A DNA stretch of 64,000 nt, from positions 1-64,000 of the forward strand of contig JAFZUS010000210.1 in the NCBI GenBank assembly GCA_017618275.1. The letters run 5' to 3'. How positions within the stretch are numbered: the stretch's first letter is position 1; every line of letters begins with the position of its first letter. The translations under genes were made by a program, and so were the position numbers. Below, piece after piece: positions 3,120-47,080 of this stretch. This stretch comes from Prevotella sp. Lineage in GTDB: Bacteria > Bacteroidota > Bacteroidia > Bacteroidales > Bacteroidaceae. The notes under the pieces were generated by a model. That model did no database searches, was not told the origin of the DNA, and saw only the letters and a program-made list of their open reading frames with translations.

Positions 3120-3935
3120 TAAAAACGAACGCAGTTTGGGCACGTAGGTGCGTGAAACCGGTACCATTGTAGGGCTCTGGCCGAGCTTCAGTTGGTAGCC
3201 ATTTGAATTGCCCTGGGCTGAGGTGATATTGTTCAGGTTTACTACAAACGAGCGGTGGCATTGGAAGATATTCTGATAGTCCTTCAGGTCGTCGAGCACA
3301 GCGGCTAAGGTGGTATGCAGTTCAGTGGTGGCCACCTTTCCATCCTTCACGTAACTGACGGCCACATTGTTCTTCTGAGCCTCGATAAAAAGAAGATCGT
3401 TGATGGGCAACTGAAGGTCATAGCCTCTTACAGTCGTATCGCGGATGGTAATAGTGATATCGGTTTGCTGGTCGGTGGTCTTATCGAGCAACGCCTCAAG
3501 TTGGTTACGAAGATATCGATAGTAGTTAAGGCCAACCGAGCAGACGGCGACAAACACGCTGACAATCAGCGTCCAGTAAAGGAACATCAGGAAGTTGTCG
3601 AGTATAATCGGATAATGGTATACAAAAGAGAAGACGAAGAAGTTACAGATGGCAATAAATAGTATTTGGATCAGTAACGACAGGGCTTCGTGCCATACCC
3701 GCCAAGGTGAAATACGCTGATGAAAAGGGCGCGCTGCCAGTCCGAATACCACACAGCCACCAAAGGTGACGGCTCCGAACAGCAGCGATACCAGCAACTT
3801 GTTACCTTGATACGTGTTGAACCCAAACGGTTGCAACAAGTACATAATCAGGAAAACAATGACACTATACAGGAGACAGTCTCTGAGCCAGTGACTGTCC
3901 GATGTAAATGGATATTTGCGCGTTAATATGGACAT
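3114..3935 (-). CDS. Membrane-bound LytTR DNA-binding regulator
   Basis: 273 residues: four predicted membrane helices (about 19-37, 48-66, 86-107, 113-135), a short linker, and a LytTR DNA-binding domain at about 166-273 (LFIEAQKNNVAVSY, FQCHRSFVVNLNNI, VPVSRTY). LytTR proteins usually are response regulators; this form lacks a receiver domain and would sense a signal in or across the membrane as a one-component regulator. It starts 12 bases after the aldo/keto reductase gene and is probably co-transcribed with it, while the downstream amide hydrolase has its own promoter preceded by a LytTR-like repeat array overlapping this gene's end. Confidence 0.9.
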   Translation of the reverse strand: MSILTRKYPFTSDSHWLRDCLLYSVIVFLIMYLLQPFGFNTYQGNKLLVSLLFGAVTFGGCVVFGLAARPFHQRISPWRVWHEALSLLIQILFIAICNFFVFSFVYHYPIILDNFLMFLYWTLIVSVFVAVCSVGLNYYRYLRNQLEALLDKTTDQQTDITITIRDTTVRGYDLQLPINDLLFIEAQKNNVAVSYVKDGKVATTELHTTLAAVLDDLKDYQNIFQCHRSFVVNLNNITSAQGNSNGYQLKLGQSPTMVPVSRTYVPKLRSFLG

Positions 3936-36445: not shown

Positions 36446-37966
36446 TTAATCGCAAATCAAATTCTCACCCGTCATGTCTGCAGGCTGCTCCAGGCCCATG
36501 ATATGGAGGATGGAGGGAGCCACGTCTGCCAAACGTCCGTCCTTCACCGTTGCCGAGTTATTGTTCGTCACGTAGATGAACGGAACAGGATTCAGTGAGT
36601 GGGCGGTATTCGGCGTACCATCAGGGTTGATGGCATTATCAGCGTTACCGTGGTCGGCAATGATGATTGCCTCATAGTCGTTGGCCTTGGCAGCCTCGAT
36701 AACATCTTTCACGCAGTTGTCGACAGCCCAGACGGCCTTGGCAATAGCGTTGTAGATACCCGTGTGGCCCACCATATCACCGTTGGCGAAGTTCACCACG
36801 ATGAAGTCATACTTATTCTCGTTGATAGCAGCCACGAGCTTGTCCTTTACCTCGAAGGCGCTCATCTCGGGCTTCAGGTCGTAGGTAGCCACCTTTGGAG
36901 AAGGAACCAGAATACGGTCCTCACCCTCGTAAGGAGCCTCGCGACCACCATTGAAGAAGAAGGTCACGTGAGCGTACTTCTCAGTTTCAGCGGTGTGCAG
37001 CTGCTTCTTGCCCTGCTTGGAGAGATACTCGCCCAGGGTATCCTCTACGTTCTCCTTGGGGAAGAGAATGTGAACACCCTTGAAGTTGGCGTCGTACGGA
37101 GTCATGCAATAGTACTGCAGGCCAGGGATGGTCTTCATGCCCTGCTCAGGCATATCCTCCTGAGTCAAAGCGATGGTCATCTCCTTGGCACGGTCGTTAC
37201 GGAAGTTGATGAAGATAACGACATCACCCTCCTCAATCGTGCCATTCACTGAAGAATTGTGGATAGGCTTGATGAACTCATCTGTCACACCCTCGTCGTA
37301 TGATTCCTGCATAGCAGCAACCATATCAGTAGCCTGCTTACCAACGCCGTTGACAATCAGGTCGTAACCCTCTTTCACACGCTCCCAACGCTTGTCGCGG
37401 TCCATAGCGTAGAAACGACCAACGATTGAGGCGATAGCAGCATCATTCTCAGCACATACCTTCGATACCTGCTCGATGAAGCCCTTACCGCTCTTGGGGT
37501 CGGTGTCGCGTCCGTCCATATAGCAATGCACAAACACCTGATTCTTCAGGCCGTATGCCTTACCAATCTCAATGAGTTTAAAGAGGTGGTCGAGGCTTGA
37601 GTGAACGCCTCCGTCAGAGGTCAGACCCATCAGGTGGAGTTTCTTATTGTTCTCCTTGGCGTAGGTATAGGCAGCCTTTACCTGGGGATTCTCCATGATA
37701 GAACCATCCTTGCAGGCACGGTTGATCTTCACAAGGTCCTGATACACGATGCGTCCAGCACCAATATTGAGGTGACCCACCTCAGAGTTACCCATCTGTC
37801 CGTCAGGCAGACCAACGTCCTCACCAGAGGCCTGGAGTTGAGAGTGGGCTGATGTTGCTGTTAAAAGGTCGAGATACGGGGTCGGCGTATTGAAGATGAC
37901 GTCACCCTTACCATGCTTACCGATTCCCCATCCGTCGAGAATCATCAAAAGTGCTTTCTTTGCCAT
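36446..37966 (-). CDS. gpmI: Cofactor-independent phosphoglycerate mutase
   Basis: 506 residues, alkaline-phosphatase superfamily. The metal ligands and nucleophile are visible: Asp11 in ILDGWG, Ser61 in MGNSEVGH, then [22 protein letters not shown] and ADHGNADN. It interconverts 3- and 2-phosphoglycerate with Mn2+. The promoter's -33 box is provided by a palindromic element (38029-38063) that also covers the rnhB stop codon. Confidence 0.98.
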
Positions 37967-38007
37967 AACTTATTACTATTTTACACGTACGTTTTATTTT
38001 GCGGGTG

Positions 38008-38039
38008 CAAAGGTACAAATTATTTTGGAATTACACAAA
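38008..38039 (-). promoter_or_regulatory. gpmI: gpmI promoter
   Basis: TTTG (38036-38039), 20-bp spacer, TACCTTTG (38008-38015) on the minus strand. The -33 box lies inside the left arm of the palindrome at 38029-38063. Confidence 0.8.
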
Positions 38040-38063
38040 AGGGACGGTTCTTTTTGTGTAATT
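38029..38063. repeat. Palindromic element between rnhB and gpmI
   Basis: Arms AATTACACAAAA and TTTTGTGTAATT (12 bp, perfect) flank an 11-base centre GGGACGGTTCT. It holds the gpmI -33 box in one arm and overlaps the rnhB stop codon in the other. The core and the ACACA/TGTGT ends resemble the elements in sufS. Confidence 0.85.
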
Positions 38064-38775
38064 ATTCACCGAAATCAAGACTCAACTGTCCGTCACCTAA
38101 GAGATTATAACTCTTGCGGTGGTAGGGCGTAATGCCGAACTGCTTGATAGCCTCACGGTGTTTTTTGGTAGGATAGCCCTTATTCGAGAACCAGTCGTAT
38201 TGCGGATATTCCTTGGCAAGTTCGTTCATATAGTCGTCACGATAGGTCTTGGCAAGGATGGATGCAGCAGCGATGGAGAGATACTTCCCATCACCCTTTA
38301 CAATGGTGGTGTGGGGTAAAAGCAATTGCTCTCCCCCTTCAGGGGGAGCAGGGAGGGGGGCTCTATAGGGCTTGAAGCGGTTGCCGTCTACGATGATAGC
38401 CTCAGGGCGCACTTTAAGCTGATCGAGGGCGCGATGCATGGCAAGAATGGAGGCATTCAGGATGTTGATCTTATCGATTTCCTCTGGGGTGACGATACCC
38501 ACGGCCCAGGCTACAGCATCGCGCTGGATGATCTCACGAAGTTGGTAGCGACGCTTCTCCGTCAACTGCTTTGAGTCGTTGAGGAACTCGTTCTTATAGC
38601 CATCGGGCAGTATGACAGCAGCAGCATAGACGCTGCCTGCCAAGCAACCACGACCAGCTTCGTCGCAACCAGCCTCAATCTTGCCTTCGTAATAATGACT
38701 TAGAAGACCTTTTCCCAGCCCCTCCCTAATATGGAGGGGTGTAGATATTGCATCCTTTATTGTCTCTTTCTTCAT
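38062..38775 (-). CDS. rnhB: Ribonuclease HII with two in-frame palindromic insertions
   Basis: 237 residues. Catalytic residues Asp38 and Glu39 (GCDEAGRG), Asp130 (IVDGNRF) and Asp180 (KTYRDD) are all present, so it should remove ribonucleotides and RNA primers from DNA. It is longer than usual for the family (about 200). The extra parts match two palindromic DNA elements: residues about 11-22 ([15 protein letters not shown] 38719-38739) and 138-153 ([19 protein letters not shown] 38331-38348). The second falls between GNRF and [10 protein letters not shown], which are close together in Bacteroides proteins as I recall them. It starts 3 bases after sufS. Confidence 0.95.
38331..38348. repeat. 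rnhB: Palindromic element inside rnhB (second)
   Basis: Arms CTCCCCCT and AGGGGGAG with a 2-base loop, followed by a further G-run (GGGAGGGGGGCTC). In frame, encoding PAPPEGGE. Confidence 0.85.
38719..38739. repeat. rnhB: Palindromic element inside rnhB (first)
   Basis: Arms CCCCTCC and GGAGGGG around 7 bases, with a C/G-run beside it (cccagc). In frame, encoding TPLHIREGL near the N-terminus, before the first conserved residues. Confidence 0.8.
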
Positions 38776-38778
38776 TCT

Positions 38779-40056
38779 CTAAAACATTTGGGCGACGCGA
38801 CGGATACCAGCCACAAGCGTATCAATCTCTTCCTTTGTATTGTAGAGGGCAAAGGAGGCACGGACGGTACCAGAGATACCCAGACGGTCCATCAGGGGCT
38901 GGGCGCAATGATGGCCTGTGCGTACAGCAATACCCAGACGATCCAAGAGGGTTCCCATATCCAAATGGTGGATATCACCCACGTTGAAAGAGACTACTGC
39001 GTCGCGCACACAGGGGACAGTCCCCCTGCAATTCGCTTCGCTGCTCACAGAGGGGACAGTCCCCATTGTGCCCTGAGAGCCGTAGATATTCATTCCTTCG
39101 ATGCTCTGGAGTTGTTCCATGCAGTAGCGGGTGAGTTCCTGCTCATGCTGTTGGATGGTGTCAAAGCCGATAGACTCGATATACTCGATGGCTTTGGCGA
39201 GACCGTGGGTGGCTACATAGTCGGGAGTGCCAGCCTCAAACTTAAACGGTAGACGCTCGAAGGTGGTTTTCTCCCACGTCACCTTGTCGATCATCTCGCC
39301 TCCGCCCTGATAGGGAGGCAGTTTATCGAGCCATTCCTCTTTGCCATAGAGCACTCCGATACCCGTAGGTCCGTACATCTTGTGTCCACTGAAGGCGAAG
39401 AAATCACAATCCATTGCCTGCACATCCACCTTAAAGTGGGGTGCGCTCTGGGCTCCGTCCACCAAGACAGGGATACCGTGTGCATGGGCGATACGGATAA
39501 TATCCTCTACAGGGTTGATGGTTCCCAGTACATTGCTGACGTGGGCCACACTGATGAGCTTAGTGCGCTCGGTTATGTATGTTGCGATGTCATCGCAACA
39601 TACCAAACGGCCATCGTCCGTAATGGGAAGATGCTTGACGATAATCCCCCGTTTCATCGCCTGGAGTTGCCAACTGACGATGTTCGAGTGGTGCTCCATC
39701 TCCGTCACAATCACCTCATCGCCTGCCTGCATCTGACTTTCGCAGAACGACGAAGCGACCAGATTGATGGCCTCCGTCGTACCACGGGTAAAGACAATCT
39801 CCTCTGTCTTCGAGGCATTGATAAACTGACGTACCTTCTCTCGTGCCGCCTCATGCAGATCCGTCGCCTGCTGACTCAGGTAATGCACTCCACGATGCAC
39901 ATTGGCATTCACATTGAGGTACTCGTCTCGCATCGCATCAAGCACACACAGCGGCTTCTGCGTGGTTGCCGCATTGTCGAGATACACCAGCGGCTTGCCA
40001 TACACCTCTCTGGATAATATCGGAAAATCCTCGCGTATTTGACTGATATCAAACAT
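38779..40056 (-). CDS. sufS: SufS-type cysteine desulfurase with an in-frame repeat insertion
   Basis: 425 residues, PLP enzyme that releases sulfur from cysteine for Fe-S clusters. The PLP lysine is Lys226 (SGHKMYGPTG) and the persulfide cysteine is Cys384 (RTGHHCAQPL). Residues about 329-350 (QGTMGTVPSVSSEANC and RGTVPC) are encoded by two GGGGACAGTCCCC palindromes; relatives run directly from MRIYG to a short link and DAVVSF. Usually sufS follows sufBCD; here it is 5 kb away, separated by a PSD-like and a PP2C gene and a secreted protein gene. A -7 box lies at 40078. rnhB follows after 3 bases. Confidence 0.96.
   Translation of the reverse strand: MFDISQIREDFPILSREVYGKPLVYLDNAATTQKPLCVLDAMRDEYLNVNANVHRGVHYLSQQATDLHEAAREKVRQFINASKTEEIVFTRGTTEAINLVASSFCESQMQAGDEVIVTEMEHHSNIVSWQLQAMKRGIIVKHLPITDDGRLVCCDDIATYITERTKLISVAHVSNVLGTINPVEDIIRIAHAHGIPVLVDGAQSAPHFKVDVQAMDCDFFAFSGHKMYGPTGIGVLYGKEEWLDKLPPYQGGGEMIDKVTWEKTTFERLPFKFEAGTPDYVATHGLAKAIEYIESIGFDTIQQHEQELTRYCMEQLQSIEGMNIYGSQGTMGTVPSVSSEANCRGTVPCVRDAVVSFNVGDIHHLDMGTLLDRLGIAVRTGHHCAQPLMDRLGISGTVRASFALYNTKEEIDTLVAGIRRVAQMF
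39013..39064. repeat. sufS: Paired GGGGACAGTCCCC palindromes inside sufS
   Basis: Two copies, at 39013-39025 and 39052-39064, 39 bp apart (13 codons), each framed by CACA and TGTG-like ends (CACAGA and ATTGTG on the second). Confidence 0.88.
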
Positions 40057-40077
40057 ACCTATTCAATAATTGCGCGA

Positions 40078-40085
40078 CAAAGGTA
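40078..40085 (-). promoter_or_regulatory. sufS: -7 box of sufS-rnhB
   Basis: TACCTTTG on the minus strand, 21 bases before the sufS ATG. No good -33 box. Confidence 0.6.
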
Positions 40086-40103
40086 CAAAATAAATATCAA
40101 AAG

Positions 40104-41395: not shown

Positions 41396-41424
41396 GGGGT
41401 GGGTGTTCAAGCAACACCCACCCC
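41396..41424. terminator. Perfect 12-bp hairpin, possible terminator
   Basis: Arms GGGGTGGGTGTT and AACACCCACCCC with a 5-base loop. It may end the minus-strand PP2C transcript, though it lies 140 bases past that gene's stop and the flanking tract is poor in T. Confidence 0.5.
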
Positions 41425-46967: not shown

Positions 46968-47075
46968 CCCCCTAAGTTAGGGGGATGGGGGTCTGAACAA
47001 GCGTTTACCAGACCATTTATTGTTTCTACTGAGAGTCTGCGCCTGTTCAGACCCCCTACCCCCTAACTTAGGGGG
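46968..47075. repeat. 108-bp foldback (MITE-like) element between sufB and sufC
   Basis: Two 36-bp arms (46968-47003 and 47040-47075) are inverted copies with 33 of 36 matches. Each arm begins with the palindrome CCCCCTAAGTTAGGGGG, then a G-run and GTCTGAACA. The 36-base centre contains CAGAC/GTCTG pairs. It starts 7 bases before the sufC ATG and ends 5 bases before the sufB stop. Confidence 0.92.
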
Positions 47076-47080
47076 TTCTA

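Follow-up and report, generated by a model that had tools for sequence, protein, structure and literature searches.

What are the two palindromes that lie inside rnhB, and how can the gene for RNase HII have come to carry them in frame? The gene belongs to a stretch of 64,000 nucleotides of Prevotella DNA (the window), and the closest named relatives of its locus are Prevotella and Prevotellaceae genomes, chiefly rumen metagenome assemblies. It stands between sufS and gpmI (36446-37966), all three on the minus strand. A first-pass annotation had described an over-long RNase HII whose extra stretches coincide with two palindromes and whose catalytic residues are kept, and our comparison bears this out (Table 1). 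With respect to insert-free relatives, in which the protein starts with MLxSHYY and the loop is short, the source enzyme has an excess of 23 residues at the N terminus and of 13 residues in the loop; residues D38, E39, D130 and D162, which we take to be the catalytic ones, are invariant over the 37 proteins aligned.

Table 1. Features of the rnhB region (positions in the window; a point marks a feature given without strand).
Feature	Position	Strand	Basis
rnhB, RNase HII of 237 aa, carries both element copies	38062..38775	minus	ORF; PF01351, 141 bits
N-terminal insert, 69 nt (23 codons), directly after the ATG; borders uncertain by a few bases	38704..38772	minus	upstream DNA of 29 orthologues
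Half-element 1 in rnhB (footprint of model R1)	38702..38752	minus	51.8 bits, training sequence
Palindrome of half-element 1, 7-bp arms, 7-base loop	38719..38739	.	CCCCTCC-n7-GGAGGGG
Loop insert, 45 nt (15 residues), replaces two codons of the short form	38320..38364	minus	orthologue loops
Half-element 2 in rnhB (footprint of model R1)	38318..38365	plus	47.6 bits, training sequence
Palindrome of half-element 2	38331..38348	.	CTCCCCC-TTCA-GGGGGAG
Another palindromic repeat, unrelated to the first; GGGGACAGTCCCC twice, in frame in sufS (38779-40056, minus)	39013..39064	.	copies at 39013 and 39052

Any RNase HII made from this gene must contain both inserts. There is no in-frame ATG, GTG or TTG between the N-terminal insert and the catalytic DEAGRG motif, and the loop insert sits between the conserved D130 and D162. 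In the AlphaFold model most of the core is confident, residues 1-23 are predicted to be disordered (pLDDT < 50), and the loop insert is a low-confidence coil with strands 126-130 and 155-158 on either side; solved RNase HII chains, when aligned, show a 15-residue gap at this place. Taken alone, each palindrome is unremarkable as a fold (DNA folding z = -2.0 and -1.1, with 8/200 and 28/200 shuffles folding equally well). The two half-elements are in opposite orientation. If the extra segments were an ordinary part of the protein, most orthologues should carry them; only 5 of 81 genes had an N-terminal copy. On a tree of the 81 sequences a minimum of 17 changes is needed for the loop insert and of 5 for the N-terminal element, a weak result since 39 of the 77 inner branches are open.

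A search of the genome revealed other copies of the rnhB palindromes, as the first-pass annotation had expected. In the source genome, CCCTCCn3-10GGAGGG matches 29 times per strand, with two of the matches overlapping, vs 0 for the reversed pattern. We trained a covariance model, R1 (50 positions, 9 pairs), on 19 half-elements of this genome, both rnhB half-elements among them. At E<1e-3 the model found 28 places in the source genome, and since 19 of the 28 had served to train it, these matches are largely there by construction; the independent evidence for the family is in other genomes. Twenty of the 28 copies form 10 divergent pairs, a minus-strand copy followed by a plus-strand copy with the tails outward (10/10), and 8 are single. 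The 28 include a weak copy in UvrA (C183:8855, 27 bits), which may be a chance match because orthologues have sequence of similar length there; matches in IlvD and in a TonB receptor (L081 and L082, E about 0.003) stand outside the 28. The half-element reads approximately GTATCTACT-CCCCTCC-n-GGAGGGG-CYGGGGG-WRGGTCT, and full elements elsewhere have AGACC...GGTCT ends, i.e. the imperfect terminal inverted repeats of a MITE.

R1 matches were present in 43/60 genomes of the genus at E<=1e-4, with copy numbers that are lower bounds, at most the best 99 candidates per genome having been scored. At the stricter E<=1e-7, 18/111 genomes of the family had matches, spread over 8 of 30 genera. The host genomes are mostly metagenome assemblies. 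In an alignment of 95 copies (93 distinct) from chosen loci, fitted to the R1 model, 98.9% of the stem cells were paired; 16 cells were altered on both sides, vs 1.5 in shuffles (none of 500 shuffles reached 16) and 0-8 in slid controls. We thus consider, with a probability of roughly three in four, that both rnhB palindromes are copies of a non-autonomous, REPIN- and RPE-like mobile element of Prevotella and of some other genera of the family.

The copies are mostly translated. Among the 18 elements of the source genome (10 pairs and 8 singles), 16 are translated, one is intergenic and one, the weak UvrA copy, is uncertain. Pfam matches show that 12 of the 14 hosts are real genes. We classified 38 full pairs, all 10 of the source genome and a further 28 found in other genomes at 24 loci (20 regions taken from the best-scoring paired matches, plus four rnhB loci). 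Of these, 20 are read through within one long ORF, counting the hemW pair (L058), which was read from the upstream start, and the weak pair L146:1885-2079. In 17 others the first ATG of the fused ORF lies in the spacer, in frame with the next gene; 14 of these fusions use the same phase (TPLPxREG), and 8 have no ATG, GTG or TTG within the next 20 codons. The last pair is intergenic, between ackA, whose start was read from the sequence, and a gene that we take to be pta. When the 37 typed pairs were inserted at random into the window, the long ORF stayed open in 145/2280 insertions for the read-through type and in 29/2160 for the others. An earlier run with the 10 source pairs gave 1.5% open for full pairs and 51% for half-elements, vs a baseline of 70%, and single half-elements in frame are therefore far less telling than pairs.

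Several translated copies were observed in other settings. In another genus of the family, an NtrC-type regulator carries two in-frame elements in linkers, and the adjoining histidine kinase carries one (L292, 1320-2804 and 20-1315). An element apparently forms part of the signal peptide of a putative SusD-like lipoprotein (L154, 1300-1457; MKEKILQIFRTVIYMFLPLIGGGWVGVSCSDFLEV), and another forms the C terminus and stop codon of an ORF for an AcrB/D/F-family (RND) transporter (L067, 1512-3050).

We compared the element-bearing sites with their orthologues. At six source junctions (hsp15, patB, AMP-ligase, chrA, lpd and a Tat-signal oxidoreductase), 19 of 20 orthologous segments were without the element, the sole exception being chrA in genome G051 (L172), where an element occupies the same junction. 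The AMP-ligase gene of G050 (L155) also bears an element at the same junction. Within genes, L066 has an exact 45-nt insertion relative to 3/3 orthologues, the hairpin of L079 is absent from 3/3, and for hemW a similar right hairpin is present in one of three (L177). As read from the aligned DNA, these empty sites show what are most probably insertions of the element; they have diverged at the borders beyond the reading of target-site duplications. Since hemW, chrA and the AMP-ligase gene share sites with relatives, some copies are old or some sites have been hit repeatedly. The spacers of the hemW pair and of the pairs at the two GOGAT-like loci, L157 and L146, are conserved host sequence, and each of these pairs is thus two half insertions and not one unit.

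At four of the source junctions (hsp15, patB, chrA and lpd) the element gives both the stop of the upstream gene and the ATG of the downstream one. The upstream reading frame extends a few codons into the left half before it meets a stop (e.g. TYKQTLPSPSL* before lpd), and the downstream frame opens at the spacer ATG, as in MINTASQIPSIPLPHREGQGGRSDLIIIGAGPGGY for Lpd. The orthologous genes at these junctions abut or overlap, for instance by ATGA in L198 and L171. Since hardly any DNA separates these genes in the relatives, the downstream ATG was brought in by the inserted element. The AMP-ligase and Tat junctions raise the question for the start alone, because a native stop lies upstream of the element and later starts are possible.

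The loop of rnhB has received more than this element. Inserts of many kinds were found there in 37/81 sequences, and the loop is a recurrent insertion site. As a set, the inserts show autocorrelation at lags 7, 14 and 21 (z = 10.3, 8.7 and 10.2 vs mononucleotide shuffles), with lags 3 and 8 also above 4. Runs of period 7 numbered 26 in 406 kb of Prevotella-like loci vs 1 in 98 kb of Bacteroides-like loci. Heptamer repeats are known from other bacteria, some Bacteroidetes included, according to the available part of PMC4679880. Two rnhB genes that are 96.4% identical outside the loop (L207 and L214) have loops of equal length, built on TGAACCC in one and on TCAGCCC in the other, in the same phase; in a second nearby ORF, of 498 codons, TCTTCCA units face TCAGCCC units. 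The two loci come from near-identical Prevotella genomes, and at 3340-3400 and about 4640 of L207 the comparison with L214 looks like a replacement of words in place, unit by unit. At the L054 site the source genome has the hairpin element, and 3/3 relatives carry different arrays of inverted words. When loop inserts were tested for 9-mers shared with the remainder of their 4-7 kb locus, only 5 of 36 reached p<=0.05, and the local data thus do not show the loop words to be repeats. Genome-wide searches gave a mixed picture: CAACTGT arrays occur in 5/60 genus genomes, the source genome not among them, the reversed-pattern control being uninformative since the pattern is identical when reversed, and TSARCCC arrays gave 1, 4, 2 and 0 matches in four genomes. 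One further rnhB loop (L264) holds a 171-nt segment made of the 21-bp unit GAACCAATAACCAATAACCGG, i.e. three 7-mers, which puts a repeated REPITNN peptide into RNase HII.

Two explanations do without a mobile element. The inserts might grow and change in place wherever a loop or junction tolerates any sequence, through slippage and through template switches between inverted words, the sites then being conserved through structural tolerance and the word differing by lineage. The varied, 7-periodic inserts of the rnhB loops would fit such growth, as would the exchange of units in phase between L207 and L214 and the other word arrays at the L054 site. The hairpin element, however, is not a 7-bp tandem array: its conserved 50-bp footprint turns up at scattered sites, it accounts for the exact insertion at L066, and no period-7 runs were detected in the window or in the source-genome loci tested. 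We regard growth in place as an unlikely origin for the rnhB palindromes. It is still far harder to maintain that the copies are ordinary RNA hairpins, terminators or attenuators, in frame by accident. Their hairpins are indeed GC-rich, and among the CCCTCC palindromes that were read at least two, L008 and L021, resemble plain terminators; yet most source copies lie in or across coding sequence, with a single one of the 18 elements clearly intergenic, a G-rich tail and a paired architecture are common to the copies, and the region 38000-40100 has no Rfam match at gathering scores. This reading is very improbable.

As a possible mobiliser, the first-pass annotation had proposed a RAYT-type transposase acting in trans; RAYTs are Y1 enzymes that move the REPINs of Pseudomonas in this way. 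The inverted hairpin pairs are REPIN-like, and the RAYT gene that it expected does exist, as one PF01797 gene in the source genome. The expected link to the element failed: this gene (L022, ORF 1108-1947) has GGGGACAG at 1086 on one side and CTGTCCCC at 2013 on the other, and not the hairpin element. Scanned with R1, 0 of 30 RAYT loci had the element as flanking repeats; six matches at E<=1, in four loci (L099 and L111 among them), were weak or remote. The element is present in 16/25 genomes without a PF01797 match and in 27/35 with one, and reaches at least 87 copies where PF01797 is absent; these counts should be read with the provisos that PF01797 could miss a diverged Y1 enzyme and that the RAYT loci read are a part of each genome's RAYTs. 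Mobilisation of this family by a RAYT is accordingly unsupported and improbable. Among the 30 RAYT loci and the longer-spaced match pairs L292, L294 and L295, a non-exhaustive search, we found neither an autonomous copy nor a mobiliser. These three, which enclose host genes according to their ORFs, were the ones examined out of eight regions with widely spaced matches (in G107, G141, G147, G029 and G084); two contigs of G107, C70 and C72, are the same sequence (3,980 bp identical).

The RAYT belongs with another repeat. GGGACAG/CTGTCCC words bracket RAYT genes at 5/30 loci (L022, L101, L103, L104 and L105), and the GGGGACAGTCCCC word in sufS is the word that brackets the only PF01797 gene of the source genome. 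Two different palindromic repeats are thus in frame in adjacent genes, and since the GGGGACAG word brackets the RAYT, the RAYT linkage belongs to that word. The orthologues of sufS that were read have other loops where the source has GGGGACAGTCCCC. This in-frame word in the neighbouring gene had been missed by the earlier annotation. The window has further candidates for repeats. An inverted palindrome pair, CCCCCTAAGTTAGGGGG at 46968-46984 and ACCCCCTAACTTAGGGGGT at 47058-47076, about 90 bp apart, possibly represents another family, and CCTAAGTTAGG cores similar to these palindromes occur at C191:22707 and C206:20898. A strong palindrome with 11-bp arms, GGGGTGGGTGTTCAAGCAACACCCACCCC, lies at 41396-41424, and GGGACGGTT words at 38041 and 54574, one of them in the rnhB-gpmI spacer, are possibly a further repeat.

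Coming back to the mobile hairpin element, we propose the following course of events. The unit is a half-element of about 45-50 bp, composed of the hairpin CCCCTCC..GGAGGGG and a G-rich tail that ends in GGTCT, and the full element consists of two half-elements, divergent and with the tails outward, around a spacer. It would move as DNA, in trans, through an enzyme that acts on hairpins, insert into genes and gene junctions, and persist where translation stays open; purifying selection against closed frames could then explain the coding bias. In permissive loops and inter-domain linkers the element would be kept as an in-frame peptide. At tight operon junctions the left half can stop the upstream gene, the spacer ATG would start the downstream gene and the right half would become its N-terminal extension. 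In rnhB, one half-element would have given the N-terminal extension and another the loop, and the host proteins probably stay active.

A broader version of this reading is put forward tentatively, as one that may well prove wrong. The element would be a mobile translation-junction cassette, whose left half ends the upstream ORF, whose spacer offers a start without a ribosome-binding site and whose right half continues into the next ORF in a constant phase; by inserting between operon genes that abut or overlap it would then silence neither of them. Positions would be conserved but their content exchanged, each lineage writing its own repeat words (the hairpin element or heptamer arrays) over the same loops and junctions, and the outcome would be fast-evolving, lineage-specific filler peptides in Prevotella proteins.

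Rickettsia and Wolbachia have supplied most descriptions of in-frame palindromic DNA, and reduced genomes are often invoked there. How selfish DNA survives in proteins can be tested more richly in a free-living genus of gut and rumen, with its dozens of translated copies per genome. The junction copies offer a testable case of a mobile element that gives stop and start codons at once, and the tolerance of proteins for particular inserts could be studied in the RNase HII loop, at the HemW sites and at the operon junctions. On the practical side, start codons in these genomes may be set wrongly by annotation pipelines.

In-frame palindromic elements as such are a known kind, as the accessible parts of PMC2229807, PMC3733652 and PMC10969869 make clear. 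In open-licence PMC papers we found no description of the hairpin element, and three aspects are apparently undescribed in that literature: a family in this phylum, the near-exclusive coding location of the full copies examined, and the stop-plus-start anatomy. RPE are palindromic repeats with open frames that lie in frame in unrelated conserved protein genes, at tolerated places (PMC2229807 and PMC10969869, in the parts available). The first-pass idea of an RPE-like family in Prevotella stood up well, with many copies inside genes and the empty junctions reported above: like RPE, the Prevotella element is palindromic, multi-copy, in frame in unrelated protein genes and absent from orthologues. 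RPE, however, are single palindromes of 105-146 bp, whereas the full Prevotella element is made of two inverted hairpins whose halves also occur alone. It also has another sequence, comes from another phylum and gives a start codon in 17/38 pairs. Length and architecture set it apart and suggest that there is no sequence relation to the RPE families.

REPINs are built of short tailed hairpins, in most cases paired in inverted orientation around a variable spacer. The Prevotella element resembles them in its two short inverted hairpins around a spacer, the arrangement of 20/28 source copies. It differs in that the constant GTAG or CGTC tag of REPs is absent from its consensus (GTAG occurs in 6/28 tails), in that a cognate RAYT flanked by the element was seen at 0/30 loci, and in that its copies are mostly coding and not intergenic. 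Intragenic REPs, and REPs in nucleotide-excision genes, are described in the available part of PMC3733652. For ERIC/RU-1 and other enterobacterial MITEs, the accessible portion of PMC2759123 reports ORFs fused in frame and, in one gene, the loss of the normal stop to a copy of RU-1 at the 3' end. These too are non-autonomous elements with an in-frame fused ORF, but such fusions are exceptional there, whereas nearly all full Prevotella copies examined are translated and four source junctions have both stop and start. Among repeats of related bacteria, the sections available to us describe PINSR of Prevotella intermedia as a 188-bp intergenic repeat without terminal inverted repeats (PMC4755523) and BrickBuilt of Porphyromonas gingivalis as always intergenic (PMC4596501); both are intergenic, in contrast to the Prevotella element, which is mostly coding.
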